From Planctomycetota bacterium (lineage in GTDB: Bacteria; Planctomycetota; SZUA-567; H5-PLA8), in NCBI GenBank assembly GCA_023150555.1, contig JAKLKQ010000020.1, forward strand, positions 1 to 64,000: a stretch of DNA of 64,000 bases. Direction: 5' to 3'. Positions within the stretch are counted from its first letter, which is position 1. Every line of letters begins with the position of its first letter. Both the position numbers and the translations under genes were made by a program. Positions 2,861 to 25,905 of this stretch are shown here, piece by piece. Below the pieces are notes generated by a model. It was given only the letters and a program-made list of their open reading frames with translations, had not been told where the DNA came from and did not search any database.

Positions 2861-3361
2861 CTATTGCGGCGAACGGTCGGCGGCGTCGCGGCAGGCGTTG
2901 GCGACGACCTCGAGCTTGACCAGGAAGGCTTCCATCTCGGCCTCGCCGACCGCCTCGAGGACCTCGCGCTGCAACTCCAGCGCCACGCGCCGCGCGTCCT
3001 TGTAGGCCTTTTTGCCCGCGGGCTTTAGGCGGATGCGGTGGGCGCGCTTGTCGCTCTCGTGCGCGCTGCGCTCCAGGAATCCGCCCTTCTCCATGCGTTT
3101 GAGCAGGCTCGAAATCGTGTTCGGATCGCTCGACATTTTCTCGACGAGTTCGCGCTGCGAGAGTCCGGTAGGGCTGGCTTCGCCTAACGTACGTAGAATG
3201 GTGAACTGGTCGGGGGTGATCGCCAGGTGCGAAATCCGGCGCCGGAAAGCCTGGTTAAGTCCATACCAGGCACGACGTAACAGCGGCGGGAGACGCCGTT
3301 TTTGGGGCGCATCGAGGCTCCCTTCATCGAAGTAAATAGCTGTTGCCTTCCTGGCGGACAT
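2861..3361 (-). CDS. MarR-family transcriptional regulator
   Basis: 166 aa, the usual MarR size. A winged helix-turn-helix spans about residues 45-120, with the recognition region around LSQRELVEKM and the wing around SAHESDKRAHRIRLKPAGKKA. Long N- and C-terminal helices should form the dimer interface. It is divergent from an 18-gene operon starting at 3504, and the 142-bp gap carries a perfect palindrome and a TATAAT box. MarR proteins are usually repressors released by phenolic or aromatic acids. A chorismate lyase in the operon suggests the ligand could be a hydroxybenzoate or a later product (inference). The ATG at 3361 has GGAGGG eight bases upstream, within the palindrome. Confidence 0.9.
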   Translation of the reverse strand: MSARKATAIYFDEGSLDAPQKRRLPPLLRRAWYGLNQAFRRRISHLAITPDQFTILRTLGEASPTGLSQRELVEKMSSDPNTISSLLKRMEKGGFLERSAHESDKRAHRIRLKPAGKKAYKDARRVALELQREVLEAVGEAEMEAFLVKLEVVANACRDAADRSPQ

Positions 3362-3368
3362 CCAATAT

Positions 3369-3401
3369 ACCCTCCGGAGGGTTTGTACGTGTTCGTATAA
3401 T
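3369..3401 (+). promoter_or_regulatory. Putative MarR operator overlapping the operon promoter
   Basis: The divergent marR/operon gap holds a 14-bp perfect palindrome, ACCCTCCGGAGGGT, at 3369-3382. A consensus TATAAT follows at 3396-3401, in the right orientation to serve the plus-strand operon, with a leader of about 95 nt to the ATG at 3504. The expected -35 position falls inside the palindrome, so a bound dimer would block RNA polymerase. The minus-strand GGAGGG of the palindrome also sits eight bases before the marR ATG, so one arm doubles as its Shine-Dalgarno sequence. No good -35 box is visible. Confidence 0.5.
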
Positions 3402-3503
3402 CTAACCGCTGTGCCGCCAACTGCAAGCTTTCATCCGCCGCCCGCCGGGTCTCCTGTAATTTCGGGTAACCCTGGGGATAGAAGGAACTTAGGAGGAATG
3501 GGG

Positions 3504-5900
3504 ATGACCAACCGAAAGATCCGCCCGGCCCTGCTTGCGTTCGGTCTCGCGGCGCTGGTGCTCGCCCTGTCCGGCTGCGACGAGGACGACGACGGCGGCG
3601 CGGCCAGGCCCAAGCAGGAGAAGCCGCCTAAGGAAGCCAAAGCCGAGAAGCCCAAGAAGCCCAAGGACGGCGGCGAGAAGGTTCCCGCAAAGCCCACCGC
3701 CGTAACGGGTTGGCTCGACTGGCGTGGCCCGCACCACAACGGCACTTCCGACGAAGTGAACCTCCCCGAGACCTGGGCGCCCGGCGGCGCGAACCATCTC
3801 TGGACCGCCGATCTGCCCGGCCGCGGCACGCCCGTCATCGCCGACGGCCGGCTCTACGTGCTCGGCTACAGTGGCGAGGGCGCCGACCTTCAGGAGTACC
3901 TCGCGTGCGTCGACCCCGAATCCGGTAAGGTCAAGTGGGAGCGGCGCTTCAACGATTTTCTCTCGGACATCGTCTACAACCGCTACAGCATCGGCGCGCC
4001 GGCTATCGATCCCGAGACCGGCAACGTCTACATCCTCACCTCGCCGGGGCTCTTCATCTGCTTCGACCGTAACGGCAAGGAGTTATGGCAGCACAGCCTG
4101 ATGGAAACCTTCGGGCGGCTGACCTTCCCCAACGGTCGCACGGGCGCGCCCATCGTCGAGGGCAACCTCGTGATCGTGCGTGGCATCACGGCGTTCTGGG
4201 GCAGCCAGGGCCCGGCTCGCGACCGCTTCTACGCCTACGACAAGCGCAGCGGCGAGCACATCTGGGCCAGCACGCCCGGCGTGGGCCCGCAGGACAGCAG
4301 CTGGGCGCATCCGCTGGCGGCGTGGTGGCAGGGCCGCCGCGTGCTCTACGTCGGAACCGGCTGCGGCAACGTGGCCTGCATCGACGTCGCGACGGGCGAT
4401 CCGCTGTGGCGCTACCGCATGTCGCTGGGCGGCATCAACGCGCAGCCGGTGCTGTTCGGCAACTCGGTGATCGCGGTGCACGACAAGGAGAACGTGGATA
4501 ACTCCAAGAACGGCGGCATGTTGGCACTCAAGCTGCCCAATGAGATACCGCTGGGCAAGGAGGAGACGGTGCTCGCCAAGGACCAGATCCTCTGGCGCAA
4601 TGACCTGAGCACCTTCAGCAGTTCGCCGGTGCCGGTGGGCGGGCGGCTGTACGTCACGACGATGACCGGCGAGCTGGCCTGCGTCGAGATGGCCAGCGGC
4701 AAGGTGCTCTGGAACCACAAGCTCGGCACCGAGCAGCTCCACGCCTCGCCCTTGTACGCCGACGGCAAGCTCTACATCCCCATGCTGGACGGGGGTTTCC
4801 ACATCGTCAAGCCGACCGACACCGGCGCACAGGTCCTCAGCACCTGCAAGCTGGAAGGCGCGCCGCTGGGCGCCCCAGCGATCTGGAACGGCAAGGTCTA
4901 CGTGCAGACGACGAAGCACCTCTACTGCTTCGGGCGCAAGGGCAAGGGCACCTTCAAGCCGCTGCCGCACTCGCCGTGGGAGGAAGCGCCGGCCAAGAAG
5001 GAAACCGGTCCTGGGCAACTGCAAGTCGTGCCTTCGGAAGTGCTTCTGAAGCCCGGAGAAACGGTGAAGCTGCACTTCCGGAGATCGGACCTGAACGTGC
5101 CTGCGGTCAAGGTGGCAGGCGCGTGGCAGCCCTTCGTTCCGGCGACGGCCAAGGTCAAAGCCATGCTGGGCGCGACCTTCGCCGATCCGTATACGCTAAC
5201 GGCCGACGAGGCCAACGTTCCGGGCGCCGGCATGTTCAAGTTCACCTCAGCCGACGGCAAGGAGACGGCCTTCCTGCGCGGGCGGATTCTTCAGAAGTTC
5301 CCGATCGAGCAGGACTTCGAGGCCTTCAAGCTCGGCGAGAAAGCCAAGGACGGCCCGGACTTCGCGTATCCGCCGCTGCCGTGGATCGGCGCGCGCTTCA
5401 AGTGGGAGATCCAGGACTTGGAGGGCAACAAGGTCCTCGCTAAGACCTTGGACAATCTGCTGTTCCAGCGCTCGCTGTCGTTCATCGGGCATCCGGACAT
5501 GTCGAACTACACTATGGAGGTGGACGTCTACAGCGACGGCAACCGCCGCATCATGTCGTCGGGCGGCGTGATCCATCAGCGCTACATCATCGCCCTGGTG
5601 GGCAGTTCGCAGATCCTGGAGGTCTCCTCAAACTACGACCGCATCAAGGTTTCCGTGCCCTTCACGTGGGCGGCGAAGACGTGGTACACGCTCAAGACGC
5701 GCGTCGACGTCGCCGCGGACGGTTCGGGCGTGGTGCGGGGGAAGGCCTGGAAGAAGGGCGATCCCGAGCCCGAGAAGTGGACCATCGAGGTGCCGCACAA
5801 GGTCGCCCACGCGCACGGTTCGCCGGGGCTGTACGGCTTCAGCCCGCAGAGCCTCAAGCGCGTATACCTGGACAACGTAAAGGTTTACCCGAGCAAGTAA
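3504..5900 (+). CDS. PQQ-type beta-propeller lipoprotein with C-terminal LamG/DUF1080-like domain
   Basis: 798 aa from the ATG at 3504, chosen because AGGAGG (3491-3496) is seven bases away; the ATG at 3498 is too close. A lipoprotein signal ends in LALSGC (Cys25), followed by Asp, which in proteobacteria favours inner-membrane retention. A Lys/Pro/Glu-rich linker (about 30-70) leads to PQQ-type propeller blades (about 70-490) that open with the typical W..RG...NGTS segment. The region from about 500 looks like an Ig-like domain followed by a concanavalin/LamG-like domain. The last 50 residues resemble those of the protein at 25252-25905. Such propellers are usually scaffolds rather than PQQ enzymes, and I see no quinoprotein dehydrogenase hallmarks. 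First gene of the operon. Confidence 0.85.
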   Translation: MTNRKIRPALLAFGLAALVLALSGCDEDDDGGAARPKQEKPPKEAKAEKPKKPKDGGEKVPAKPTAVTGWLDWRGPHHNGTSDEVNLPETWAPGGANHLWTADLPGRGTPVIADGRLYVLGYSGEGADLQEYLACVDPESGKVKWERRFNDFLSDIVYNRYSIGAPAIDPETGNVYILTSPGLFICFDRNGKELWQHSLMETFGRLTFPNGRTGAPIVEGNLVIVRGITAFWGSQGPARDRFYAYDKRSGEHIWASTPGVGPQDSSWAHPLAAWWQGRRVLYVGTGCGNVACIDVATGDPLWRYRMSLGGINAQPVLFGNSVIAVHDKENVDNSKNGGMLALKLPNEIPLGKEETVLAKDQILWRNDLSTFSSSPVPVGGRLYVTTMTGELACVEMASGKVLWNHKLGTEQLHASPLYADGKLYIPMLDGGFHIVKPTDTGAQVLSTCKLEGAPLGAPAIWNGKVYVQTTKHLYCFGRKGKGTFKPLPHSPWEEAPAKKETGPGQLQVVPSEVLLKPGETVKLHFRRSDLNVPAVKVAGAWQPFVPATAKVKAMLGATFADPYTLTADEANVPGAGMFKFTSADGKETAFLRGRILQKFPIEQDFEAFKLGEKAKDGPDFAYPPLPWIGARFKWEIQDLEGNKVLAKTLDNLLFQRSLSFIGHPDMSNYTMEVDVYSDGNRRIMSSGGVIHQRYIIALVGSSQILEVSSNYDRIKVSVPFTWAAKTWYTLKTRVDVAADGSGVVRGKAWKKGDPEPEKWTIEVPHKVAHAHGSPGLYGFSPQSLKRVYLDNVKVYPSK

Positions 5901-5936
5901 GCGCGGCGTTTTACACGGATTCAAGGAGCGAAGACG

Positions 5937-7463
5937 ATGCGGAGACTGAACTTTCTTACCTTGGCCTGCCTTCTTTGCGCGACCGGCGCCTGTGCGGGCG
6001 ACTGGCCAATGTGGGGCGGCACCGTCGAGCGCAACATGGTCTCGGCGGAGAAGAATCTGCCTTCCGAGTGGTCCGTCGGTAAAATGAAGGAAGGCACGGA
6101 GGAGGTTGACCTTGCGACGACGAAGAACATCAAGTGGGCGGCCAAGTTGGGCAGCCAGTCCTACGGCAACGTGACCGTCAGCGGCGGGCGCGTCTTCGTC
6201 GGGACGAACAACGAGACGCCGCGCGACAAGCGCTACCAGGGCGACCACGGCAACGTCTACTGCTTCGACGAGAAGACGGGCGAGTTCCAGTGGCAGTTGG
6301 TCGTTCCAAAGCTCGGCGCGGGCAAGGTTTCCGACTGGGAGTTCCTCGGCATTTGCTCCTCTCCGGAAGTCGAAGACGAGCGCGTGTACATCGTCACCAA
6401 CCGCTGCGAGGTCGTCTGCCTCGACGTGCAGGGCATGAAGAACGGCAACGACGGGCCGTACAAGGACGAGGCGAAGCACGCGGGCGTGGAGGGCGAGCCA
6501 TCGGCTACCGACGCGGACATCGTCTGGATCTTCGATATGCGCGAGGAGTTGGGCGTCTTCCCGCACAACATCACCAGCAGTAGCGTATTGATCGACACCG
6601 ACCGGATTTACGTGACGACCTCCAATGGCCAGGACTGGTCCCACGTCAACATCCCGCAGCCCAACGCGCCATCGCTTTGCGTGCTGGACAAGAAGGACGG
6701 GACGCTTGTTGCCGAGGAGGCCGTCGGCATCAGCAAGCGGATCTTTCACTGCACGTGGTCCTCGCCGGCGCTCATGAAGCAGGGCGAGCAGAAGACGGTG
6801 ATCTTCGGCGCCGGCGACGGTTTCGTCTACGGCTTCGATCCCACGCCCTCGAAGGATGCCGACGGCCTGATGGTTATCAAGGACCGCTGGCGCTTTGACT
6901 GCAATCCGCCTGAGTACAAGAAGGACAAGGACGGGAAACCCTTTAAGTATCCCAGTGACAAGGGGTTCAGCGAGATCATCGCCACGCCGGTCGTCTACAA
7001 GGACCGCGTCTACGTCGCGGTGGGGCAGGACCCCGAGCACGGCGAAGGCGTAGGCTGCCTGAGCTGCATTGACGCGACCAAGACCGGCGACGTCACCGCC
7101 ACCGGCGCCGTCTGGCAGTACAAGGGCATCAACCGGACCATCTCGACGGTCAGCATCGCCGACGGGCTGGTCTACGCCGCCGACTATGCCGGCGACATCC
7201 ACTGCCTGGACGCCGAGACGGGCAAGCTCTACTGGAAGCACGCAACCCGCAGCCACATCTGGAGTTCGACCCTTGCCGCCGACGGCAAGGTCTACATCGG
7301 CACCGAGGATGGGCAGGTCGTGATCCTGCAGCAGGGCAAGGAGAAGAAGGTCCTCGCCGCCGTCGAGATGGGCGCGCCGGTCTACAGCACGCCCGTCGTC
7401 GCCAACGGGGTGCTCTACGTCGCCACGCAGACTCACCTGTACGCGATTCAGCAGAAGCCGTAG
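5937..7463 (+). CDS. Secreted PQQ-type beta-propeller repeat protein
   Basis: 508 aa. The N-terminal signal peptide is cleaved probably after GACA, just before GDWPMWGG. The W-P-M-W-G-G start followed by an RN pair is the usual opening of planctomycete-type PQQ-like propellers. Repeating blades of about 40-60 aa contain Y/F-C-F/L-D-x-x-T-G-x-x-x-W (for example around FDEKTGEFQW and LDAETGKLYW). RBS AAGGAG at 5922-5927. It lies 36 bp after the first propeller gene and 10 bp before the DUF3311 gene. A periplasmic or surface binding or scaffold role is likely; ligand unknown. It lacks the C-terminal LamG-like domain of its neighbour. Confidence 0.85.
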   Translation: MRRLNFLTLACLLCATGACAGDWPMWGGTVERNMVSAEKNLPSEWSVGKMKEGTEEVDLATTKNIKWAAKLGSQSYGNVTVSGGRVFVGTNNETPRDKRYQGDHGNVYCFDEKTGEFQWQLVVPKLGAGKVSDWEFLGICSSPEVEDERVYIVTNRCEVVCLDVQGMKNGNDGPYKDEAKHAGVEGEPSATDADIVWIFDMREELGVFPHNITSSSVLIDTDRIYVTTSNGQDWSHVNIPQPNAPSLCVLDKKDGTLVAEEAVGISKRIFHCTWSSPALMKQGEQKTVIFGAGDGFVYGFDPTPSKDADGLMVIKDRWRFDCNPPEYKKDKDGKPFKYPSDKGFSEIIATPVVYKDRVYVAVGQDPEHGEGVGCLSCIDATKTGDVTATGAVWQYKGINRTISTVSIADGLVYAADYAGDIHCLDAETGKLYWKHATRSHIWSSTLAADGKVYIGTEDGQVVILQQGKEKKVLAAVEMGAPVYSTPVVANGVLYVATQTHLYAIQQKP

Positions 7464-7473
7464 GAGGCCGCCC

Positions 7474-7716
7474 ATGCGCGCCGTGCTGCCCTTTGCGCTG
7501 GTCCTGACCATGATCGTGCTGCACCAGGACGTCTGGTTCTGGGACAGCACCTATCTGGTCTTCGGCTTCCTGCCCATCGGGCTGGCGTACCACATCGGCT
7601 TCTCGATCCTGGCTGCGTGCCTGTTCGCGCTGCTGGTGTGGAAATACTGGCCCGCGGGTTTGGAGCCCGGCGCGGCGGACCGTCCCCAGGATCCGGCAGG
7701 GGGCGCCCAAGAATGA
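7474..7716 (+). CDS. DUF3311 small membrane protein, symporter partner
   Basis: 80 aa with two membrane spans (about residues 3-17 and 27-62, the second region broken by GFLPIGLAYH). LHQDVWFW and FGFLPIGLAYH match the DUF3311 pattern. DUF3311 genes typically lie directly before a sodium:solute symporter gene and are thought to be an accessory subunit, as YhdT is for PanF-type carriers. Here the TGA overlaps the ATG of the symporter (ATGA at 7713-7716), so the two are translationally coupled. RBS AGGAGG just upstream. Confidence 0.85.
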   Translation: MRAVLPFALVLTMIVLHQDVWFWDSTYLVFGFLPIGLAYHIGFSILAACLFALLVWKYWPAGLEPGAADRPQDPAGGAQE

Positions 7717-9329
7717 ATCCCGCCTGGATCGTCCTAATCTATCTATCGATAGTGGTTTACATCGGCATCTTCGCGTTTCGCAAAGGCAAGGAATCGGGCG
7801 AGGACTTCTTTCTGGCCAGCCGCAGCCTGGGCCAGTTCATCTTCCTGCTCTCGCTGTTCGGCACCAACATGACGGCCTTCGCCATCCTGGGCAGCTCGGG
7901 CATGGCCTATCACCGCGGGATCGGCGTGTACGGCCTGATGGCGTCTTCCTCGGGCCTCATCATCCCCCTGACGCTCTTCGTCATCGGCACGCGGCTATGG
8001 GCGCTGGGCAAGCGCTTCGGGCACATGACGCAGGTCCAGTTCTTCCGCGACCGCTGGGAGTGTTCGGGCATCGGCACCGTGATCTTCGCGCTCACCGCGG
8101 CCATGCTGGTTCCCTATATCATCATTGGCGTTATGGGTGGCGGACACACCCTGGCGACGATCAGCGCCTACAAGGCCGAGGACGGGCAGGTCGTCTCCTG
8201 GATCGGCTACGAGGTCGGCGGCGCCATCGTAGCGGTGGTGGTGATGAGCTACGTCTTCTTCGGCGGCATGCGCGGTACGGCCTGGGTAAACACCTTCCAA
8301 ACGATCCTCTTCCTGTGCTTCGGGACCATCGCCTTCGTGCTCATCGGCGCGAAGCTGGGCGGCTTCGACACCATCATGGAGAAGATGTCCCAGCAGCCGG
8401 CGACCGCCTCGCTGCTTAACCGCGCTCGCATAACGCCAGAAGAGTTCTTCAGTTACATGTTCATCCCGCTGTCCAGCATCATGTTCCCGCACATCGCCAT
8501 CATGTGCCTGACCGCCGAGAAGGTCACGCACTTCCGCAAGACCATTGTCTTCTATCCGATCTGTATCGCGCTGATCTGGATTCCCAGCGTCTACCTTGGA
8601 GTGATCGCCGCGAACGAGTTCCCCGGGCTAAAACCGGGTGAGACCAACGACGTGATCCCGCAGATGCTCACCAAGCACACCGACGCCTGGCTGGCCGGCC
8701 TGCTGGGAGCCGCCATCATGGCTTGTGTGATGGCCTCGGACAGCCAGATCCTGGCGCTCTGCACGATGTTTACCGAGGACATCTTCGCCTACTACGGCGG
8801 CAAGGAACGCTTCGGCGACAAGGCGCAAGTCTGGACCGGGCGAGCGTTTGTAGTGCTGGTGACCGGCGCCAGTTACCTGATCGCCCTAAAGCTGCACGAC
8901 AAGGAGAACATCTTCGAGTTGGCCATCCGCTTCGCCTTCTCGGGCTTTGCGGCCATGGCGCCGGTCATGCTTGCGGCGCTCTTCTGGAAGCGCAGCACCA
9001 AGTGGGGCGCGCTGGCCGCGACCCTTTGGGTGGCGCTTTCGTTGGCCGGGACCTGGATCCTGCACAGTCAGTCGGAGGCCATGGCCAAGGCGCTCAAGCC
9101 GGGGGAAACGGCGGCCATCATCCCCGAATTGGGCAATCTGTTTATGCGCACCAAAGGCGCTGTGGTCATGTATGGTTTTCTCCCGGTGATGTTTATGTGC
9201 ATCGGTTCAGCCCTGTTGATGGTCGTGGTATCCCTGCTGACCAGACCGCCCAGCCAAGGGACGATCGCCAAGTTCTTCCCCGGAGGCAAAGCCATCGGTG
9301 CCCTGCCGCCTGCCGGAGCGGCCACCTGA
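7713..9329 (+). CDS. Sodium:solute symporter (SSS family)
   Basis: 538 aa with about 13 hydrophobic segments. I start it at the ATG at 7713, which overlaps the DUF3311 stop. The open frame runs further upstream, but that part is a shadow of DUF3311. N-terminal features (RKGKESGEDFFLASRSLG, then the SLFGTNMTAFAILGSSG helix) are those of SSS transporters such as PanF, PutP and SglT, in which TM1 and TM8 bind sodium. Substrate cannot be told from sequence. Operon position suggests import of a precursor or re-uptake of an organic acid for the following ligase and reductase genes, or of a sugar for the glycosyltransferase. Confidence 0.85.
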   Translation: MNPAWIVLIYLSIVVYIGIFAFRKGKESGEDFFLASRSLGQFIFLLSLFGTNMTAFAILGSSGMAYHRGIGVYGLMASSSGLIIPLTLFVIGTRLWALGKRFGHMTQVQFFRDRWECSGIGTVIFALTAAMLVPYIIIGVMGGGHTLATISAYKAEDGQVVSWIGYEVGGAIVAVVVMSYVFFGGMRGTAWVNTFQTILFLCFGTIAFVLIGAKLGGFDTIMEKMSQQPATASLLNRARITPEEFFSYMFIPLSSIMFPHIAIMCLTAEKVTHFRKTIVFYPICIALIWIPSVYLGVIAANEFPGLKPGETNDVIPQMLTKHTDAWLAGLLGAAIMACVMASDSQILALCTMFTEDIFAYYGGKERFGDKAQVWTGRAFVVLVTGASYLIALKLHDKENIFELAIRFAFSGFAAMAPVMLAALFWKRSTKWGALAATLWVALSLAGTWILHSQSEAMAKALKPGETAAIIPELGNLFMRTKGAVVMYGFLPVMFMCIGSALLMVVVSLLTRPPSQGTIAKFFPGGKAIGALPPAGAAT

Positions 9330-9343
9330 CTAGGAGTAGCCGG

Positions 9344-10429
9344 ATGCCGCAGACCAAGACGCCGCTCGCCGCTTCCGCCGCCGCCATGCAAGCCCTGGAC
9401 GCGCAGGCGGTTGCGATCGTGAAATGGCACTTCTCGCCCGAGACGGGCACGCCCTTCTGGCTCGAGTGGGCCAAGCGCAATGCCTGGAACCCGGCCAAGG
9501 AGGTCTCGTCTTTCGCCGACCTCTCGCGCTTCCCGCACTTTCAGGACGAGTGGCTGCGCGACGAGCCCAATGAGCGCTGGGTGCCCAAGGCCTTCGCCGG
9601 CAAGCCGTTCCACGTCTTCGAGACCGGCGGCACCACCGGCATGCCCAAGCAGCGCCTGAGCTGGGAAGACCACAAGACCGACTACACGGAGTTCTCGCGG
9701 ACGCTCGACGAGCGCTACTTCCCGCGCGGCGCCTACTGGCTGATGCTCGGGCCCACCGGACCCCGCCGCCTGCGGCTGGCCATCGAGCACCTCGCTGGCG
9801 TGCGCGGCGGCAGCTGCTACCACGTGGACCTCGACCCGCGCTGGGTCGTGAAGTGCCTGGGCAAGCGCGATGTCGAGACCGCCAATCGCTACAAGGAACA
9901 CGTGATCGACCAGGCGGTTACGCTGCTCAAGAACCGCAAGGTGCAGTGCCTCTTCACGACGCCGAAGCTGCTCGAAGCGCTCGGCGAACGGCTCTCCGTG
10001 CCCGACGCCGGCATCCGCGGCGTCTTCTGCGGCGGCACCAGCATGACCCCGCAGATGATTCGCTTCCTGACCGAGGAAGTGCTGGAGAACCGCGCCCAGT
10101 TCGTCCCGACCTACGGCAACACGCTCATGGGCCTGGCTTGCAGTCGCCCCCTGAAGCCCGAGGACAACTGGAGCGTCACCTATTACGCGCCGCAGCCGCG
10201 CGCCGCGCTGCGCGTCGTCGATCCCAAGGACACCGTACGAACCGTGGGCTACGGCGAATGCGGGCGCGTCGAACTGACCACGCTGACCAAGGAGTTCTTC
10301 ATGCCGCGCTTCCTCGAGCGCGACGAGGCCATCCGCCGCGAGCCCTGCGACCTGTACCCCTGGGACGGCGTCGGCGACGTGCGGCCCTTCGGAATGCTCG
10401 AGAAGAAGGTCGTCGAGGGGGTGTATTAA
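9344..10429 (+). CDS. EhpF-like adenylate-forming enzyme (aryl/acyl acid activation)
   Basis: 361 aa from the ATG at 9344 (RBS TAGGAG). A P-loop of the adenylate-forming superfamily, FETGGTTGMPKQR, is at about residues 91-103. The protein is short and seems to lack the mobile C-terminal domain with the catalytic Lys found in full acyl-CoA synthetases. This architecture is that of EhpF, which activates a phenazine carboxylate for reduction by the aldehyde dehydrogenase EhpG, and it also recalls LuxE. The next two genes encode an aldehyde dehydrogenase and an Fe-alcohol dehydrogenase, so an acid-to-aldehyde-to-alcohol route is likely. Substrate is inferred: 4-hydroxybenzoate or another operon acid. 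A fatty acid is the alternative. Confidence 0.7.
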   Translation: MPQTKTPLAASAAAMQALDAQAVAIVKWHFSPETGTPFWLEWAKRNAWNPAKEVSSFADLSRFPHFQDEWLRDEPNERWVPKAFAGKPFHVFETGGTTGMPKQRLSWEDHKTDYTEFSRTLDERYFPRGAYWLMLGPTGPRRLRLAIEHLAGVRGGSCYHVDLDPRWVVKCLGKRDVETANRYKEHVIDQAVTLLKNRKVQCLFTTPKLLEALGERLSVPDAGIRGVFCGGTSMTPQMIRFLTEEVLENRAQFVPTYGNTLMGLACSRPLKPEDNWSVTYYAPQPRAALRVVDPKDTVRTVGYGECGRVELTTLTKEFFMPRFLERDEAIRREPCDLYPWDGVGDVRPFGMLEKKVVEGVY

Positions 10430-10433
10430 AGGC

Positions 10434-11876
10434 ATGAGCGTCCCGCTGCCGCATATCCCCGTCCTGCGTTTTGGCCAGCCCTACGAGAGCCTGGACGTCA
10501 GCGAGCTTGCCGACTACCGCACCGGCCGCCCGCTGGCGAAGCTGTCCATCGCCAATCCGGGTCTGGTGCGCCGCGACCTGCGCAAGGTGGGGTCCGCCGC
10601 CGCCGCGCTGCGGGCGCTCTCCTGCGCGAAGCTGATCGAGATCTGCGCAAAGGCCGGCGAGCTCTTCTTAAAGGAGGCGCTGCCACTGGGCGTCGGCGGG
10701 CAGACCCAATCGCCCGACGACTACGTGGAGAGGTTGAGCGCGACCAGCGGTCTGCCGCATAATCTCTGCCGCGCCAACATGTTGAAGATCCACCAGGTCT
10801 TCGTCGAGATGCCTACGGTCTTGAAGGGCCTGACGCGCGGGCTCGACCTGCGTGCACTGGACAATGGGCTTGGCGAGCAGTCCGGCGTGCCGGTGAGTTA
10901 CTTCGCGGCGACCGACGCGCTGGGCGTGGTCCTGCCGAGCAACTCGCCCGGCGTGAACTCGCTCTGGATCCCCGCCATCGCGTTGAAGGTGCCCGTGATC
11001 CTCAAGCCCGGCGGCACCGAACCCTGGACGCCGTACCGAGTTATCCAGGCGCTGATCGCGGCGGGCTGCCCGAAGGAAGCCTTCGGCTTCTATCCGACCG
11101 ACCACGAAGGCGCTTCAACGATCCTCGAACGTTGCGCGCGCGGCATGATCTTCGGCGACGACACCACCACCGAACGGTACCGAAACAACCCGGCCGTCTC
11201 GGTGCACGGCGCCGGCCGCAGCAAGATCGTCATCGGCGAGGACCAGATCGAGCACTGGCGCGAGCATCTCGACGTGCTGGCCGAGTCCATTCTTGCCAAC
11301 GGCGGGCGCAGCTGCGTGAACGCCTCGGCCGTGGTCGTGCCGAAGTACGGCCGCGAGATCGCGCAGGCCCTGGCCGAACGCCTGGGCCCGATCGACGCGC
11401 GCGCCGCGACCGATCCGCAGGCGCAGCTTTCCGGCTTCGCCAACCCGAAGATGACCGAGTGGCTCGACGAGACGCTCGAGGAGGGTCTGCGCGAGCCCGG
11501 CGCGGAGGACGTGACCGCGCGCTTTCGCAGCGGCCCGCGAAAGGTGACCTTTGACGGCGGGCACTACATGCGCCCGACGGTGGTCTTCTGCGCATCCTTC
11601 GAGCACCCGCTGGCCAACCGCGAATTCCTGTTTCCTTACGCCAGCGTCGTCGAAGTGCCACAGGCCAAAGTCCTCGCCACCATCGGGCCGTCGCTGGTGG
11701 TCACGGCCATCACGAAGGACGAGGCGTTTGTGCGGCAACTGCTCGCCGCGCCGCACATCGACCGCCTGAACATCGGACCCATTCCCACGCCCAAGGTGCG
11801 CTGGGACCAGCCGCACGAGGGGAATCTCTTCGAGTTCCTCTACACGCGCCGCGCCTTCCAGCGCGTCGGCGCTTGA
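10434..11876 (+). CDS. Aldehyde dehydrogenase superfamily protein, acylating (reductive) type
   Basis: 480 aa, four bases after the ligase stop. The nucleophile Cys294 lies in NGGRSCVNAS, matching the G-Q-x-C region of the superfamily. The ELGGK-type segment with the general-base Glu of hydrolytic aldehyde dehydrogenases is replaced by GAGRSKIVIG. Loss of that Glu is seen in acylating members (acyl-CoA reductases, LuxC, EhpG), which reduce an activated acid rather than oxidise an aldehyde. Substrate-pocket and cofactor segments (VLPSNSPGVNSLW, ILKPGGTEPWTP) are present. With the EhpF-like enzyme upstream it should reduce an acyl/aryl adenylate or thioester to the aldehyde. Oxidation in the reverse direction cannot be excluded. 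Confidence 0.75.
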   Translation: MSVPLPHIPVLRFGQPYESLDVSELADYRTGRPLAKLSIANPGLVRRDLRKVGSAAAALRALSCAKLIEICAKAGELFLKEALPLGVGGQTQSPDDYVERLSATSGLPHNLCRANMLKIHQVFVEMPTVLKGLTRGLDLRALDNGLGEQSGVPVSYFAATDALGVVLPSNSPGVNSLWIPAIALKVPVILKPGGTEPWTPYRVIQALIAAGCPKEAFGFYPTDHEGASTILERCARGMIFGDDTTTERYRNNPAVSVHGAGRSKIVIGEDQIEHWREHLDVLAESILANGGRSCVNASAVVVPKYGREIAQALAERLGPIDARAATDPQAQLSGFANPKMTEWLDETLEEGLREPGAEDVTARFRSGPRKVTFDGGHYMRPTVVFCASFEHPLANREFLFPYASVVEVPQAKVLATIGPSLVVTAITKDEAFVRQLLAAPHIDRLNIGPIPTPKVRWDQPHEGNLFEFLYTRRAFQRVGA

Positions 11877-17586: not shown

Positions 17587-18890
17587 AGATCATCCAGTTG
17601 ACGCCCGGCGCCGGCGGCATGTACTGCGGCGGCTGCATGCGCGACAACGCCCTGGTTGCCGGCTTGCGAAAACTCGGCCATGATGCGCTGCTGGTCCCGC
17701 TTTACCTGCCGCTGCAAATCGACGAAGACGACATGAGCAGCGGCTCGCCGCTCTTCTTCGGCGGCGTCAATGTGTATCTGCAACACAAGTCGGCCGTATT
17801 CCGCAAGACGCCCGCGTGGGTCGACCGCGCGTTCGACACGCCGGGCTTGCTGCGCTGGGCGGGCCGCATGACCGGTTCGACGAAGCCGGAGGACTTGGGC
17901 TCGCTGACGGTCTCGATGCTGCGCGGCGAGAGCGGCAACCAGGCGAAGGAACTCGAGAAGCTCGTTCGCTGGCTAAAGGACGATGCTCGGCCCGACGTGG
18001 TGTGCCTCTCAAACCTCCTGCTGGTCGGTATGGCGCGGCGCATCAAGGAGGCGCTGCGTGGGCCCGTGGTCTGCTCGCTGCACGGCGAGGACTATTTTCT
18101 CAACGCGCTGCCCGCGCCGCACGGCGAGGCCGCATGGAAGGAAGCCCGCACGCGCGCGGCGGAGGTCGACTGCTTTATCGCCGTCAGCAGGTACTACGGC
18201 GATGTCATGCGGAGTCGCCTCGGCCTGCGCGAGGAGCAGCTCAAGGTCGTTCACAACGGCATCGCGCTTGATGGGTACACGCCTGCGGAGACGCCACCCG
18301 AACATCCTACGCTCGGCTATTTCGCGCGATTGTGCCCTGAGAAGGGCCTGGCGACCCTCATCGACGCGTTCCTCCTCATAAAGGAGGCCGGCCGGCTGCC
18401 GGGATTGAGGTTGCGCATCGGCGGCAGTCTGAGTCCGGGCGACGAGGCTTTTGTCGAGGCGCAGCGCGAGAAACTCGCGAAGGCCGGGATCGTAGGTGAC
18501 GTGGAGATAGCGCCCAACCTGGACCGCGCGCAGAAGCTGGCCTTCTACCGCTCCCTGACGGTCTTCTCGGTGCCGGCGACCTATGGCGAGGCCTTCGGGC
18601 TCTTCGTCCTGGAAGCGTTGGCCGCGGGCGTGCCGGTCGTGCTGCCGCGGCACGGGGCGTTTCCGGAGTTGGTGGAGGCGCTCGGCGGTGGCAAACTATG
18701 TGCGCCGGACGATCCGAATGCCCTGGCCGATGTAATCGTCGAGGTTGCTGCCGACCGTGCGCGGGCTCGAGCGCTGGGCGAGGCAGGACGAAAGGCCGTA
18801 CGGGCCGGGTATACGGTCGAGCACATGGCGCGAAACGTGGCGGCCGTACTGCAGGCAACGGTTTCCGCGCCCCGTCGCGTGAGCGGATAG
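17583..18890 (+). CDS. Glycosyltransferase family 4-type (GT-B)
   Basis: 435 aa. The N-terminal half opens with IIQLTPGAGGMYCGGCMRDN, the glycine-rich acceptor-side loop of GT-B enzymes. The C-terminal half holds the donor site with E-x7-E (EAFGLFVLE, about residues 336-344) and the preceding NLDR, LGYFARLCPEKG. These indicate a retaining transferase using a nucleotide sugar. It is coupled to the halogenase-like gene by ATGA. In this setting it most likely glycosylates the phenolic or alcohol group of the operon product, making it exportable or less toxic. Lipid or polysaccharide acceptors remain possible. Confidence 0.85.
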   Translation: MKIIQLTPGAGGMYCGGCMRDNALVAGLRKLGHDALLVPLYLPLQIDEDDMSSGSPLFFGGVNVYLQHKSAVFRKTPAWVDRAFDTPGLLRWAGRMTGSTKPEDLGSLTVSMLRGESGNQAKELEKLVRWLKDDARPDVVCLSNLLLVGMARRIKEALRGPVVCSLHGEDYFLNALPAPHGEAAWKEARTRAAEVDCFIAVSRYYGDVMRSRLGLREEQLKVVHNGIALDGYTPAETPPEHPTLGYFARLCPEKGLATLIDAFLLIKEAGRLPGLRLRIGGSLSPGDEAFVEAQREKLAKAGIVGDVEIAPNLDRAQKLAFYRSLTVFSVPATYGEAFGLFVLEALAAGVPVVLPRHGAFPELVEALGGGKLCAPDDPNALADVIVEVAADRARARALGEAGRKAVRAGYTVEHMARNVAAVLQATVSAPRRVSG

Positions 18891-18902
18891 GTGGAGCGAG
18901 CG

Positions 18903-19352
18903 ATGCCCTACGAATTCCGTTTCCGGCGGCGCGTCGAGTTCGCCGAGACCGACATGGCCGGCATCATGCATTTCTCGAACTATTTCCGCTTCATGGAAGC
19001 CGCGGAGCACGCCTTCTTCCGTTCGCTGGGCCATTCCATCGTTCCGAAGGAAGGGGACGCGAAGGTGGGCTGGCCGCGCGTGCATGCCGAGTGCGACTAC
19101 CGGCGCCCGCTGCGTTTCGAGGACGAAGTCGAGGTTCGGCTGCTGGTCGAGGAGAAGTCGCAGAAGACGATTCGCTACCGTTGCGTCTTCAGCAGGGTTA
19201 ACGCCGGCGCGCCGGAGGAAGTCGCTCGTGGCGTCCTGGTCGTGGCGTGCGTGGCACACGCCGCCGACGGTTCGATGAAGGCGGTGCCGATTCCTGATGC
19301 GATTGGGAAGAAGATCGAGGTCGCGCCGCCTGACGCGTTGAAGAACTGCTGA
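18903..19352 (+). CDS. Hot-dog acyl-CoA thioesterase (YbgC/4-hydroxybenzoyl-CoA type)
   Basis: 149 aa from the ATG at 18903; a GTG at 18891 would add four residues without a better RBS. The 4-hydroxybenzoyl-CoA thioesterase signature is present: catalytic Asp17 in FAETDMAGIMHFSNYFRFME, with the H-F-x-x-Y-F and E-x-A helix following. It hydrolyses aryl- or short acyl-CoA esters. The PaaK-like ligase two genes later could make such an ester, so the pair would control release of the free aryl acid. True substrates of YbgC-like proteins vary. Confidence 0.88.
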   Translation: MPYEFRFRRRVEFAETDMAGIMHFSNYFRFMEAAEHAFFRSLGHSIVPKEGDAKVGWPRVHAECDYRRPLRFEDEVEVRLLVEEKSQKTIRYRCVFSRVNAGAPEEVARGVLVVACVAHAADGSMKAVPIPDAIGKKIEVAPPDALKNC

Positions 19353-19373: not shown

Positions 19374-19931
19374 ATGCCTGCGGGATCGCAATCGTCGGAT
19401 GGAATGGGCTGGCTGGCGTTCAGCCTGATGACCGTCGCGTGCTGGGGCCTGTACGGGGCCTTCCTGCACGGCGGCGCGATGGGCATGAAGGATCCGGCCA
19501 ACGGCCGCTACAAGGCCTTCCTCCTGGTCGGCATCGCCTATTTCGTGACTGCGGTGATCGCGCCCGCGGTAATGCTCAAACTCGGCGGCGCGGAATGGAA
19601 GTTCCCCGGGCCGGGGCTGAAGTGGTCGCTGCTCGCGGGCCTGGTCGGCGCGGCGGGCGCGTTCTGCGTGCTGCTGGCCTTCGGCGCCAAGGGCCAGCCG
19701 GCCGTCGTGATGTCCATCATCTTCGCCGGCGCGCCGGTGGTGAACGCGATCTACGTGATGGCGCTCCATCCGCCGGAAGGCGGCGTGGGCAGTGTGGACA
19801 AGCGCTTCTTCCTCGGAATCTTGCTGGCGGCCGTCGGCGGTTGCCTGGTGACGCTGTACAAGCCCGACCCTCCGAGGGCGCCCGCCGCCGTGCAAGCGGC
19901 GCCGGCCGAGGCCAAGCCGGCCAGCCCCTAG
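19374..19931 (+). CDS. Half-size DMT (EamA-like) membrane protein
   Basis: 185 aa with about five membrane helices (about residues 11-33, 46-64, 83-104, 108-130, 143-160) and a hydrophilic Pro/Ala-rich tail. This is half of a ten-helix drug/metabolite transporter. Small members act as dimers, as in EmrE-like or EamA half-proteins. It is embedded in the operon (21 bp before, 13 bp after), and I infer transport of an operon intermediate or product. RBS GAAAGGG is moderate. Confidence 0.65.
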   Translation: MPAGSQSSDGMGWLAFSLMTVACWGLYGAFLHGGAMGMKDPANGRYKAFLLVGIAYFVTAVIAPAVMLKLGGAEWKFPGPGLKWSLLAGLVGAAGAFCVLLAFGAKGQPAVVMSIIFAGAPVVNAIYVMALHPPEGGVGSVDKRFFLGILLAAVGGCLVTLYKPDPPRAPAAVQAAPAEAKPASP

Positions 19932-19944
19932 GCAAGGAACCGAG

Positions 19945-21237
19945 ATGTCCGGATTCCCCGACCGCCCGAGCATCGAACAGGCGCAGCAGGAACGCCTGCG
20001 CGTGTTGCTCGGGGCCATGGCGCCGGGCAATCGATTCTATGCGCCGCGGTTGGCGGCGTCAGGCTTGAAACCCGCGTCGGCTATGCTGGAAGAGTTCTCG
20101 AAGCGATTCTCCTTTACGCTGAAGTCCGAGGTCGTCGAAGACCAGCGCGCGCATCCGCCGTACGGCACGAACCTGACCTTTCCGATGGAAAAGTATTCGC
20201 GCTACAACCAGACCAGCGCGACGACCGGCACGCCGATGCGCTGGCTCGACACGCCCGAAGACTGGAGGTGGATGCTCGGAAACTGGCAGGAAGTGTACCG
20301 CGCAGCGGGCGTGGGCGCCGCCGACCGGCTCTTCTTCGCGTTCTCCTTTGGGCCGTTTCTGGGTTTCTGGACCGCCTTCGAGGCCGCCGCCGCAAACGGA
20401 TGGCTGTGCCTGCCCGGCGGTGGCCTGAGCAGCGTCGCGCGCCTGCGCATGATGCGCGACAACGCAGTGACGGTGCTCTGCTGCACGCCCACGTACGCAT
20501 TGCGGTTGGCCGAGGTCGCCGCCGAAGAGAAGATCACTGGCGCGGGCGATGCGCTGAAAGCGGTCATCGTGGCAGGCGAACCGGGCGGTTCGATCCCCTC
20601 GACGCGCAAACGTATCGAGGCTGCCTGGCCGAAGGCGCGGGTCGTCGATCACCATGGCATGACGGAAGTCGGGCCGGTGAGCTACGAATGCCCCAAGCGT
20701 CCCGGTGTCCTGCATGTGATCGAGACCTCGTATTTTGCCGAAGTCATCGATCCGGCCACCGGCGCGCCTGTGGGTCCGGGTGGGGCGGGGGAGTTGGTCT
20801 TGACGACATTGGGCCGCTTCGGTTCGCCGCTGTTGCGCTACCGCACCGGCGACGGCGTGCGGCGCGCGTCCGGCGGCGTCTGCGCGTGCGGGCGCAGCGA
20901 GTTGGCCCTGGAAGGCGGCATCCTGGGACGCACCGACGACATGATTCTGGTACGCGGCGTCAACGTGTACCCGGCGGCGGTCGAGGAAGTGGTGCGCCGC
21001 ATGTCGGAGGTCGCGGAGTACCGCGTGGAGGTATCCGGCGCGCGGGGCCTCGCGGAGATGCGCGTCGATATCGAATGCGCGGTGAATGTTGCCGACGGCG
21101 ACGCTGTGGCGCGCCGCCTGGAAGACGAGTTGCGCGCGACTTTCAATTTGCGTGTACCGGTGAAGGCGCTGCCGGCCGGCGCGTTGCCGCGTTTCGAGAT
21201 GAAAGCGAAGCGCTGGTTTCGCGACGCCAAGGTCTGA
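19945..21237 (+). CDS. Phenylacetate-CoA ligase (PaaK)-like aryl-CoA ligase
   Basis: 430 aa, the usual PaaK length. The P-loop QTSATTGTPMRW is at about residues 88-99. HHGMTEVGPVSYEC is the A5-type motif, YRTGDGVR the A7 region, and GRTDDMILVRGVNVYP the hinge, followed by a C-terminal ferredoxin-like domain. Unlike the ligase at 9344, it has the full C-terminal domain and should make an aryl-CoA thioester from acid, ATP and CoA. The natural candidate acid is the chorismate-lyase product. Phenylacetate itself is less likely, since no paa pathway genes are nearby. Confidence 0.85.
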   Translation: MSGFPDRPSIEQAQQERLRVLLGAMAPGNRFYAPRLAASGLKPASAMLEEFSKRFSFTLKSEVVEDQRAHPPYGTNLTFPMEKYSRYNQTSATTGTPMRWLDTPEDWRWMLGNWQEVYRAAGVGAADRLFFAFSFGPFLGFWTAFEAAAANGWLCLPGGGLSSVARLRMMRDNAVTVLCCTPTYALRLAEVAAEEKITGAGDALKAVIVAGEPGGSIPSTRKRIEAAWPKARVVDHHGMTEVGPVSYECPKRPGVLHVIETSYFAEVIDPATGAPVGPGGAGELVLTTLGRFGSPLLRYRTGDGVRRASGGVCACGRSELALEGGILGRTDDMILVRGVNVYPAAVEEVVRRMSEVAEYRVEVSGARGLAEMRVDIECAVNVADGDAVARRLEDELRATFNLRVPVKALPAGALPRFEMKAKRWFRDAKV

Positions 21238-21249
21238 AAGGAGCAGGCC

Positions 21250-21951
21250 GTGCTGCTGGAACTGCAGGGCGTCGGGAAACGCTTCGAGTCCGCGGGCGGC
21301 GGCGCGGTCTTGGAGATCCTTAAGGATATCAACCTGTCGGTGGAGGCGGGTGAGTCCCTGGCCGTGGTGGGACCATCGGGGTCGGGCAAAAGCACGCTGC
21401 TGAACATCATCGGCGCGCTCGACCGCCCTACCACTGGGCGCGTCGCGTTTGAAGGCCGAGACCTGGCCGCGCTCGACGACGACGCGCTGGCCGAGCTGCG
21501 CAGCCGGAGAATTGGCTTCATCTTCCAGGCGCACCACCTGCTGCCGCAGTGCTCAGTGCTGGAGAACGTGCTGGTGCCCACGCTGATCCTGCGGGATGCG
21601 GACCTGAAGGCGAGCGCCGAGGTCCGGGCGCGCGAACTGCTTCAGCGGGTGGGACTGACCGAGCGCATTGCGCACCATCCGGGGCAACTCTCCGGCGGCG
21701 AGCGGCAGCGCGTGGCCGTCGTGCGAGCGTTGATCAATCGCCCCAAGCTGCTGCTCGCCGACGAGCCGACCGGCGCATTGGACGCGGGTACGGCCTCGCA
21801 ACTCGGTGAGCTGTTGGTAGAACTCAACCGCGACCTTGGCGTGACCCTGATCACGGTTACGCATGCGGCGGGGCTGGCCGAGCGCATGGGGCGCCGGCTT
21901 GAACTGCGCGGCGGCACCCTGGTCCAGAGCTCCGAGGCGAACAATCCGTGA
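21250..21951 (+). CDS. ABC transporter ATP-binding protein (LolD/MacB type)
   Basis: 233 aa with GTG start (AAGGAGC upstream). Walker A GPSGSGKST, Q-loop FQAHHLLPQ, signature LSGGERQRVAV and Walker B LLLADEPTGALD are all intact, and ADEPTGALD is typical of the LolD/MacB/FtsE group. It pairs with the FtsX-type permease that follows (GTGA overlap at 21948-21951). This class drives mechanotransmission: extraction of lipoproteins, or export of small molecules and peptides through a periplasmic partner. Placed after the enzymes, it most likely exports the finished product or sorts the operon's lipoprotein. Confidence 0.9.
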   Translation: MLLELQGVGKRFESAGGGAVLEILKDINLSVEAGESLAVVGPSGSGKSTLLNIIGALDRPTTGRVAFEGRDLAALDDDALAELRSRRIGFIFQAHHLLPQCSVLENVLVPTLILRDADLKASAEVRARELLQRVGLTERIAHHPGQLSGGERQRVAVVRALINRPKLLLADEPTGALDAGTASQLGELLVELNRDLGVTLITVTHAAGLAERMGRRLELRGGTLVQSSEANNP

Positions 21952-24900: not shown

Positions 24901-25241
24901 TGCTGCTGGGCAGTATCGGGTTGGGGGTGGTGGTGCTGCGCAACGTGCTGGAACGCCGCGGCGAGTTGGCGCTGCTGCGTGCGGTCGGGTTCACGCGAGG
25001 CGGCCTGAGGCGCATGGTATTTGGCGAACACGGCGCGCTGCTGGTGGCTGGGCTGGGTTGCGGGGTCGTGGCGGCCTTCGTGGCGGTGGTTCCCGCACTC
25101 CGGGCGCCGGGCGGCGGCTTTCCGTTCGCCTCATTGTCCGTTACCCTCGCTGCGGTGCTCATGAATGGCCTGCTCTGGACCTGGGCGGCCACCGTCTTCG
25201 CGCTCCGCGGGCCCATGCTGAACGCGCTGCGCAACGAGTGA
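21948..25241 (+). CDS. Large FtsX-type ABC permease (two FtsX units)
   Basis: 1097 aa from the GTG overlapping the ATPase stop. One N-terminal TM (about 15-35) precedes a periplasmic domain of about 450 aa. A first FtsX core (about 497-610) contains the VGVLLAVGFTPVQVRRVLMLEG segment. Central TMs lie around 640-760. A second periplasmic domain precedes a C-terminal FtsX core (about 977-1090) with ALLRAVGFTRGGLRRMVFGEHG. Two FtsX cores in one chain suggest it replaces a LolC/LolE or YtrF-like pair, so the ATPase would act as a dimer on a single polypeptide. Substrate unknown; co-expression with the biosynthetic genes suggests product export. Confidence 0.88.
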   Translation: MTLWTLAAAGLRHHWRAHVGVVLGAAVGCTVLVGALLVGSSVKLSLRVLADQRLGRTAWALSGRDRLFREELAANMTETLGDPVAPVLQLSGKAGRSDGSARANRVSVLGVDERFSELSIEDALPVPGPGEVVLNERLALQLNAVPGDQLVLRVRKASAISLDAPLAPHEDDSVALGVRVKAVAGGDRLGNFSLQANQVPPFNAFCALRDLQTATGLAGKDGEPARANLLLGGTAAGSETLRSALSKVWTLADAELKVMPCTQGGLELRTDRIFFDAETEAVALQAAPGARGIFSYFVNEIRAGERATPYSMVAAMGTPMVPDEMKDDEILLNAWLAEDLNAKTGAEVELAYFVVGPMQKLEEHRRRFTVRGVLPLEGATDDPTLMPDFPGLAHTDNCKDWDPSFPVDLDRIRDKDESYWDDYRGTPKAFVTLAAGRDMWTSRFGALTAVRYPDAKDREALAGEMRKRLDPAQLGLAIVPARANADASTADALDFGPLFVGFSFFLIVAAVLLMALLFVFGVERRAEEVGVLLAVGFTPVQVRRVLMLEGAALALAGGVFGSLCGIAYAQFMLYGLATIWRDAVQTSALSFHFDALALAAGAMGGVAVCLIAVILAVRKQVRRPARDLLSGSVTDEPVRMGRSRGRWVAIVSTVAALGIVVAMGARRDMVAAGGFFGAGALLLSAGLGALAALLSGLRGKGGAAASFGLGVLAVRNGTRRRGRSLATAGLLASGSFLIVAIGAFRLDAQLDATSRASGTGGFALLAQSALPIARDLNAKAVQDAYNFTDGELKNVQFVPLRLREGDDASCLNLSRAQQPQVWGVDPSVLAERKAFSFAAAEDGSGANPWLLLDAPAEGDVVPCILDQNTAQWGLHKGIGDTIEYTDGLGRRFYMRIVATVANSILQGAVLVSEARFVEKFPGVSGYRIFLIDAPSERAEAVSAVLSMQLGDLGFEATPAPRRLAEFNAVQNTYLSTFQVLGGLGLLLGSIGLGVVVLRNVLERRGELALLRAVGFTRGGLRRMVFGEHGALLVAGLGCGVVAAFVAVVPALRAPGGGFPFASLSVTLAAVLMNGLLWTWAATVFALRGPMLNALRNE

Positions 25242-25251
25242 GGAGTTTCCG

Positions 25252-25905
25252 ATGAGATGCGTTCTCGTCCTTTTACTGTTCGCAGTGCCCGCGGTGTTCG
25301 CTGCGGACGCTGAGGAACCCAAGCCCGAGCTGCGGTACGCGAACGACTTCGAGACACTGAAGCCCGAGCAGATCAAGGATGAGTTCTTGATCATGGCGGG
25401 TGAGTTTGCGCTTCAGAAAGACGGCGCGAACACGGTGATCGAACTGCCCGGCAAGCCGGTGGACGACGTTGGCCTGCTTTTCGGGCCGACCAGCACTCAG
25501 CCCATCGTGGTGCAGGCGCGGATTTTCGCCACTAAGGTTCGGCGGCGCACGCCGGCCTTCTGCGTGGGAGTGAACGGGCGGCGGGACTATCGCCTGCGCG
25601 TGAATCCGGCCTCCGAAGCGATGGAACTCCTGCGCGACGGCAAAGTCCTGGCCAGCGCCGAGTACAAATGGGCCTCCGGCCAATGGACCGTGATGCGCCT
25701 GCAGGTCACGAGCGGCGGCGAAGGAGTCTCGCGCCTCGAAGGCAAGGTCTGGACCGAGGGCCAGGACGAGCCGAAGGAATGGATGGTCGCGCACGAGTTG
25801 AAGGAAGCTGTTCTTCCGGCGCGCGCGAGTCTCTACGGTGCACCGTACTCGGAAAAACCGATTCGCTTTGACGATTTGAAGGTGGAGCCGGCGGAGAAGA
25901 AGTGA
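25252..25905 (+). CDS. Secreted LamG/DUF1080-like protein
   Basis: 217 aa with a signal peptide cleaved near VFAADA. The mature part looks like one concanavalin-type beta-sandwich. The C-terminal segment (GK-x-W-x-x-G-x-x-EP-x-x-W, later LYG and a D-x-x-KV-x-P ending) closely resembles the end of the first gene of the operon (3504-5900), so the operon begins and ends with the same domain type. RBS GAGGAG, 10 bp after the permease. Function unknown; I infer binding of a glycan or hydrophobic ligand outside the cytoplasm. It is the last gene of the run; no clear terminator follows. Confidence 0.7.
   Translation: MRCVLVLLLFAVPAVFAADAEEPKPELRYANDFETLKPEQIKDEFLIMAGEFALQKDGANTVIELPGKPVDDVGLLFGPTSTQPIVVQARIFATKVRRRTPAFCVGVNGRRDYRLRVNPASEAMELLRDGKVLASAEYKWASGQWTVMRLQVTSGGEGVSRLEGKVWTEGQDEPKEWMVAHELKEAVLPARASLYGAPYSEKPIRFDDLKVEPAEKK

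Follow-up and report, generated by a model that had tools for sequence, protein, structure and literature searches.

A conserved operon of Planctomycetota predicted to make a small aromatic product without polyketide chemistry

What would a bacterium make with a chorismate lyase, an aryl-acid-reducing pair, a halogenase-like enzyme and an exporter encoded side by side? We addressed this question for an 18-gene operon in a stretch of 64,000 nucleotides (the window; contig JAKLKQ010000020.1, positions 1–64,000) from a 6.6 Mb draft genome of Planctomycetota. A first-pass annotation had read the operon as MarR-controlled and as the source of an exported hydroxybenzoate-derived aldehyde or alcohol that might be halogenated, methylated and glycosylated. 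We favor, with somewhat better than even confidence, a conserved biosynthetic route to a small aromatic compound of non-polyketide origin, probably a modified 4-hydroxybenzoate-derived aldehyde or alcohol that is exported.

An 18-gene operon without polyketide machinery

The operon runs along the + strand from PQQ1 (start ∼3504) to LP217 (end 25905), with a divergent MarR gene on its 5' side (Table 1). Neighboring genes share 4 bp at six junctions (DUF3311/SSF, FeADH/PQQ3, PQQ3/rSAM, rSAM/CL, FMO/GT and ABC/FtsX), the rSAM/CL overlap being counted only with the CL start at the GTG at 15741. The non-overlapping junctions measure, in order, 36, 10, 14, 4, 21, 10, 0, 21, 13, 12 and 10 bp. The layout first reported, with 18 co-directional genes, gaps of 0–36 bp, at least six overlaps and a divergent MarR gene, was thus confirmed in full.

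Protein families were called with Pfam and NCBIfam, and the named ones held: three propellers, two AMP-binding enzymes, an aldehyde dehydrogenase (ALDH), an iron-type alcohol dehydrogenase (Fe-ADH), a HemN-like radical SAM enzyme, a halogenase-like FAD enzyme, a glycosyltransferase, a 4HBT thioesterase, and an exporter composed of an ATP-binding cassette (ABC) ATPase and an FtsX-like permease. Missing from the earlier list were the DUF3311 and SSF pair (7474–9329) and the membrane protein TM185 (19374–19931); the AlphaFold2 model of TM185 had a pLDDT of 49 and was set aside. Catalytic residues were conserved in every operon enzyme examined in orthologue alignments. As first stated, the domain searches found no ketosynthase, acyl carrier protein or nonribosomal peptide synthetase module in the operon. 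The large open reading frames downstream are not polyketide synthases (PKSs), and the genome's ketosynthase matches sit on other contigs. With ketosynthase and acyl carrier protein absent in and near the operon, we rejected a polyketide or aryl polyene reading.

Table 1. Operon genes, the divergent regulator and candidate operator sites (window coordinates)
Feature	Coordinates	Strand	Evidence
MarR-family regulator, divergent	2861..3361	-	PF01047 2.6e-14
Palindrome ACCCTCCGGAGGGT beside MarR start, second operator candidate	3369..3382	.	perfect palindrome
Putative MarR operator TACGTGTTCGTA, TACG-N5-GTA type	3386..3397	.	shared pattern in relatives
PQQ1, lipoprotein-like beta-propeller protein	3504..5900	+	PF13360; lipobox-like LSGC
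PQQ2, exported beta-propeller protein	5937..7463	+	PF13360 6e-22
DUF3311 small membrane protein	7474..7716	+	PF11755 5e-5, under cut-off; position before SSF conserved
SSF, sodium:solute symporter	7713..9329	+	PF00474 2e-41
AMP1, EhpF-like aryl-acid adenylating enzyme	9344..10429	+	profile match to EhpF 3hgu/3l2k
ALDH, EhpG-like reductase partner	10434..11876	+	match to ALDH beside EhpF homologue
FeADH, iron-type alcohol dehydrogenase	11898..13145	+	PF00465 8e-52
PQQ3, membrane-anchored beta-propeller	13142..14416	+	PF13360/PF13570; adjoins rSAM in most loci
rSAM, HemN-like radical SAM enzyme	14413..15744	+	PF04055, PF06969
CL, DUF98-type chorismate lyase	15759..16313 (GTG at 15741 possible too)	+	fold, product-site residues
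FMO, flavin-dependent halogenase-like enzyme	16324..17586	+	solved halogenases, motifs
GT, GT4-type glycosyltransferase	17583..18890	+	PF00534 1e-24
4HBT-fold acyl-CoA thioesterase	18891..19352	+	PF13279 5e-13; catalytic-type Asp 50/50
TM185, unclassified membrane protein	19374..19931	+	without Pfam match; co-inherited with pathway
AMP2, PaaK-like aryl-CoA ligase	19945..21237	+	PF00501 + PF14535
ABC exporter ATPase	21250..21951	+	PF00005 2e-36
FtsX-like permease, 1097 aa	21948..25241	+	PF02687 1.7e-20
LP217, exported protein, function unassigned	25252..25905	+	signal peptide-like start; without Pfam match; weakly conserved here

The gene set is conserved across phyla and co-inherited without linkage

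A search of related genomes found the gene set in Planctomycetota, in Verrucomicrobiota and, in part, in Acidobacteriota. Its order is the same or nearly the same in same-family relatives and in many other Planctomycetota families, and CL occupies a similar position in many of them. A profile scan with rSAM yielded at least 571 relatives. Among the 80 kept, mostly from Verrucomicrobiota, many Verrucomicrobiota carriers (Opitutaceae, Chthoniobacter, Roseibacillus, Akkermansiaceae and others) had the full operon, and Acidobacteriota had a partial set, the rSAM-FMO-4HBT-AMP2 block. The arrangement is far beyond chance: dozens of genomes repeat the gene order, complete in two phyla and partial in one more. 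The rSAM tree groups the phyla broadly, with some Planctomycetota falling with Acidobacteriota, a mixed placement that would fit either old transfer or shared ancestry.

In three families (f30, f72 and f98, probably Pirellulaceae and Planctomycetaceae) the operon genes are dispersed, mostly in near-complete genomes. One chromosome (G075) carries FeADH-PQQ3-rSAM-CL-FMO at 2.0 Mb, AMP1-ALDH at 3.96 Mb and DUF3311-SSF-4HBT-ABC-FtsX-TM185 at 0.52 Mb. Across 392 Planctomycetota genomes, AMP1 and rSAM occurred together in 83, AMP1 alone in four (79%, 84%, 83% and 62% complete), rSAM alone in three and neither in 302. This count left out AMP1 matches of ∼200 bits or less, mainly from family f47, which we rejected as true AMP1: they belong to a distant paralogue (33%–35% identity) in a different gene context. 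FMO and TM185 were each present in 36/36 genomes of the three dispersed families; in 21 controls without strong AMP1 or rSAM matches, TM185 was found in none and FMO-like genes in four, as weak paralogues. AMP1 was also present in 14 of 15 Verrucomicrobiota and Acidobacteriota genomes, most of which have an rSAM locus without the remaining operon nearby.

The first-pass annotation had held that scattering of the genes in relatives would count against a single pathway. They are indeed scattered, yet the scattered genes remain co-inherited, which argues instead for one pathway whose gene set is kept as a functional unit; genes that have come apart and are nonetheless inherited together imply that the set as a whole is under selection. 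The operon first described is real, and the gene set is wider than a local cluster. Conserved in three phyla and co-inherited even when scattered, it hardly resembles a cluster for a secondary metabolite of one strain.

A proposed route from chorismate to an exported aromatic product

We infer the reactions on the proposed substrate, the identity of the product and its role from the families present. CL would convert chorismate to 4-hydroxybenzoate, and AMP2 (165–198 bits against the NCBIfam PaaK models, under their cut-offs) would turn this into its CoA ester. FMO and rSAM might then modify the ring of the CoA-loaded acid, in a conjectural order and by a conjectural chemistry, before the 4HBT thioesterase releases the modified acid from CoA. 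AMP1 would adenylate the freed acid and ALDH would reduce the acyl-AMP to the aldehyde, as in the GriC/GriD and EhpF/EhpG pairs, leaving FeADH to interconvert aldehyde and alcohol. The product may receive a sugar from GT and leave the cell through ABC-FtsX; SSF-DUF3311 may bring it, or a related compound, back in, and the site at which the exported propeller proteins would act on it lies beyond the inner membrane. MarR is predicted to repress the operon from shared intergenic sites until an aromatic ligand is bound. The hydroxybenzoate-derived aldehyde or alcohol first proposed is in part supported by our results and gains strength from the CL fold, the EhpF/EhpG matches and the exporter.

A bolder extension, which we regard as doubtful, is that the gene set makes a phylum-level small molecule with a modified 4-hydroxybenzyl unit at its core, serving as redox mediator, signal or envelope component, and not an accessory secondary metabolite. 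If so, many Planctomycetota, Verrucomicrobiota and Acidobacteriota would depend on it, and the scattered co-inheritance would reflect that role.

Candidate ring-modifying enzymes

The solved structures nearest to FMO are the halogenases 8zop, PltA, ChlB4 and CndH (E-values of 1e-77 to 1e-84), whose substrates are mostly aromatic. FMO carries GxGxxG as GGGPAGST, WxWxIP as GWFWYIP and Fx.Px.Sx.G as FLDPVFSSG, and these motifs are kept in nearly all full-length orthologues; the catalytic Lys74, conserved in 64/65 orthologues, aligns with the KK of PltA. WxWxIP, Fx.Px.Sx.G and the catalytic Lys form the motif set defined as marking halogenases (PMC7336383). This set speaks against an alternative that we nevertheless consider a distinct possibility, namely the same pathway with FMO acting as a hydroxylase or reductase and a product without halogen. 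The superfamily also covers monooxygenases and reductases, the NCBIfam matches of FMO include QhpG and geranylgeranyl reductases, and no flavin reductase gene was found in the operon.

The CxxxCxxC motif of rSAM is conserved in 103/103 orthologues, and its profile matches include HemN 1olt (1e-48) and NocN (7e-34). For HemN coproporphyrinogen dehydrogenase and HemW, as for HutW, it falls under the curated NCBIfam cut-offs (hemN, 189 bits against 325; HutW, 186 against 400; HemW, 179 against 205); a second HemN_C protein is encoded elsewhere in the genome. Judged by these scores, rSAM is a new branch of the HemN family. It has the CxxxCxxC motif and HemN-like C-terminal domain of class C radical SAM methyltransferases. 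Of the modifications first proposed, then, the halogenase motifs and catalytic Lys were borne out, as was a GT4-type gene; halogenation, glycosylation and, through a weak similarity of rSAM to class C methylases, methylation of the product are what we infer from them.

A predicted aryl-acid reduction module

A profile search matched AMP1 over its full length to EhpF (3hgu/3l2k; E = 2.6e-59), placing it among EhpF-family adenylating enzymes without the large C-terminal domain. AMP1 is 36% identical to an EhpF homologue from a phenazine cluster. On a plasmid with phenazine genes, the EhpF homologue is followed by an ALDH gene, and the window ALDH matches the plasmid ALDH with 27% identity over 449 aa (8e-43). 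The catalytic Cys294 of ALDH is conserved in 42/42 orthologues and D197/H201/H266 of FeADH in 41/41. In grixazone biosynthesis, GriC/GriD reduce 3-amino-4-hydroxybenzoate via the acyl-AMP (PMC10179220). The matches support a predicted two-component aryl-acid reductase of this type, composed of AMP1 and ALDH. The "acylating-type" ALDH of the first-pass annotation thus keeps its family and is better read as an EhpG/GriD-like partner of AMP1 that would act on the acyl-AMP; the proposed module from acid to aldehyde, with an alcohol dehydrogenase, is supported by the EhpF/EhpG matches and the Fe-ADH family.

Two side observations concern AMP1 and its relatives. In one genus (G292, family f30; L068:9723-19901 and L201:1-9435), the genes after AMP1-ALDH encode first a 2274-aa type I PKS, in which a ketosynthase, an acyltransferase and four FabA-like stretches were seen, and next a ketoacyl-acyl carrier protein synthase III (KAS III); here an aryl aldehyde module could be joined to a PKS resembling polyunsaturated fatty acid synthases. 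The distant AMP1 paralogue (29%–35% identity; L079-L085; families f47, f95, f97 and f67) neighbors, in f47, an epimerase-like gene, a U32-like peptidase and an aminotransferase-like gene, a context that suggests another conserved pathway, in planctomycetes that are probably anammox bacteria.

The most specific rival holds that AMP1-ALDH-FeADH reduce a fatty acid and that the pathway ends in a 4-hydroxybenzoyl ester, or in another aryl lipid, carrying a (chlorinated) fatty chain. One such compound, alichondrichlorin from the planctomycete Alienimonas chondri, whose biosynthetic genes are unknown, contains 4-hydroxybenzoate, and a chlorinated fatty acid has been reported from R. baltica (PMC12078418). 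The operon joins a source of 4-hydroxybenzoate with a halogenase-like enzyme, and the PKS beside AMP1-ALDH in one genus has FabA-like domains; that neighbor is not general, however. EhpF, the solved relative of AMP1, and GriC/GriD use aryl acids, the halogenases closest to FMO mostly take aromatic substrates, and no ester-forming acyltransferase was recognized in the operon. We regard such a lipid as unlikely.

Evidence weighing against a biosynthetic operon

Several observations count against our preferred reading of a single biosynthetic pathway. The Fisher test for co-occurrence of AMP1 and rSAM (p = 6e-76) ignores shared ancestry. In Acidobacteriota the loci are often without a neighboring CL, and in some Verrucomicrobiaceae just rSAM and CL remain linked, so the genes need not all serve one product. 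One 97% complete genome (G328) has rSAM without AMP1, FMO or TM185. Finally, SSF (paired with DUF3311) belongs to an importer family, MarR regulators often govern aromatic catabolism, and the Fe-ADH and ALDH families are commonly oxidative and could run in that direction here. This last group of points would fit an operon that takes up and oxidizes an environmental aromatic from alcohol through aldehyde to acid, with MarR sensing it and CL incidental. Against this stand a biosynthetic-type lyase that is the only one recognized in the genome, an ALDH of the EhpG reductase type, an encoded exporter and an operon without a ring-cleavage gene, and we think it quite improbable.

The chorismate lyase

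CL had no Pfam match at E≤0.01, chorismate lyase models included. A profile search placed it with 2nwi (2e-6), and a Foldseek search with its AlphaFold2 model (pLDDT 91.8) ranked the DUF98 protein AF1396 first and the E. coli chorismate lyase UbiC (1fw9) tenth. In the profile alignment, Met34, Arg76, Gly90, Leu114 and Glu155 of UbiC (mature numbering) correspond to Met49, Arg77, Gly93, Leu117 and Glu176 of CL, the Met34 and Glu155 pairings lying at or just past the hhalign alignment ends and read by eye from flanking sequence. We take these UbiC residues to be the ones that hold the product in its structure. All 83 CL orthologues keep the Met, Arg and Gly, 80/80 have the Glu, and 13 carry Phe in place of Leu. 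The chorismate lyase call thus stands on fold and product-site residues. CL is single-copy, and no UbiC-family lyase (PF04345) was found in the genome.

That CL might instead supply 4-hydroxybenzoate for tetrahydromethanopterin, its place in the operon being accidental, is very unlikely and was rejected for the source genome: its nearest solved relative, AF1396, comes from a methanopterin-using archaeon and most tested genomes with the other CL sequence type encode beta-ribofuranosylaminobenzene 5'-phosphate (beta-RFAP) synthase, but that synthase is absent here and from 11 other operon-bearing genomes, which excludes this use, and CL keeps a similar operon position in many families. DUF98 lyases split into two sequence types, with DMT and HMT motifs (in an alignment that includes L020-L025 and the window CL), and may serve separate pathways; the beta-RFAP synthase association, which holds for most genomes, is that of the HMT type, whereas G053 has the HMT type without the synthase. 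In another genome (G037; L018:8934-11015), CL and FMO share one 693-aa open frame with an Ala/Gly/Pro-rich linker, possibly a natural fusion or an in-frame pair without an intervening stop.

Regulation and neighboring genes

The PQQ1 frame has its first GTG at 3411 and a likely ATG start at 3498 or 3504; either ATG gives a MarR-PQQ1 spacer of ∼140 bp. MarR orthologues (47%–61% identity) lie divergently beyond PQQ1 in six of 10 relatives' loci. The TACG-N5-GTA pattern, represented in the window by TACGTGTTCGTA, occurs in six of seven MarR-PQQ1 intergenic regions (the window and six relatives), compared to a shuffled mean of 0.1; none of 2000 shuffles reached six, an optimistic probability because the pattern was picked after inspection. 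The perfect palindrome ACCCTCCGGAGGGT is the sole copy in the genome, allowing one mismatch, and was not found in the relatives' MarR-PQQ1 loci; we therefore prefer TACG-N5-GTA as the putative operator. A scan for sigma-70 promoters gave nothing above chance, and such a scan says little in Planctomycetota. The link of MarR to the operon is borne out by its conserved divergent position and the shared motif, and control itself is predicted.

An ECF-type sigma factor (26045-26782) lies on the same strand 139 bp past the operon and was not counted as a member. Farther along the window (50982-57848), the - strand encodes a 2288-aa protein whose FtsX and MacB-like domains are confined to the C-terminal third; an OPT transporter and an NHL-repeat protein are its neighbors.

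Comparison with known systems

About one-fifth of the Planctomycetota sampled carry the gene set, as do members of at least two other phyla, and the literature searched names no product for it. Its enzymes are of known kinds; their combination, distribution and co-inheritance were not found described, nor was any paper on the gene set or characterized matching cluster, in that literature, which left most subscription papers and MIBiG outside. The pathway we favor would unite, without PKS or nonribosomal peptide synthetase, a dedicated chorismate lyase, a CoA-free aryl-acid reductase, a halogenase-like enzyme and a new HemN-family branch, a pathway type that could escape rule-based cluster finders.

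Aryl polyene, xanthomonadin and flexirubin clusters share with the operon an aryl CoA ligase, a halogenase-like FMO, a 4HBT thioesterase and a glycosyltransferase; unlike them, the operon has no ketosynthase, acyl carrier protein, ketoreductase or dehydratase. With GriC/GriD and EhpF/EhpG (griseoluteic acid), known pairs that use aromatic carboxylic acids, it shares a full-length EhpF-family enzyme and an EhpG-like ALDH. Identity is just 27%–37%, however; no phenazine or 3-amino-4-hydroxybenzoate genes were recognized, and AMP1-ALDH sit instead with a chorismate lyase, Fe-ADH, radical SAM enzyme and halogenase-like FMO. FMO has GxGxxG, WxWxIP, Fx.Px.Sx.G and the catalytic Lys in common with PltA, ChlB4, CndH and CmlS, but its operon lacks a carrier protein and flavin reductase. 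CL has the fold of the UbiC/DUF98 lyases (AF1396, Rv2949c), with the Met34, Arg76, Gly90 and Glu155 equivalents invariant and that of Leu114 mostly kept; it differs from them in having no Pfam match and in a host genome with neither a UbiC-family gene nor beta-RFAP synthase. Closest to home, alichondrichlorin, with its 4-hydroxybenzoate, and the chlorinated fatty acid of R. baltica are halogenated compounds of the same phylum (PMC12078418); by comparison, the operon adds predicted acid reduction and export and has a range of three phyla.

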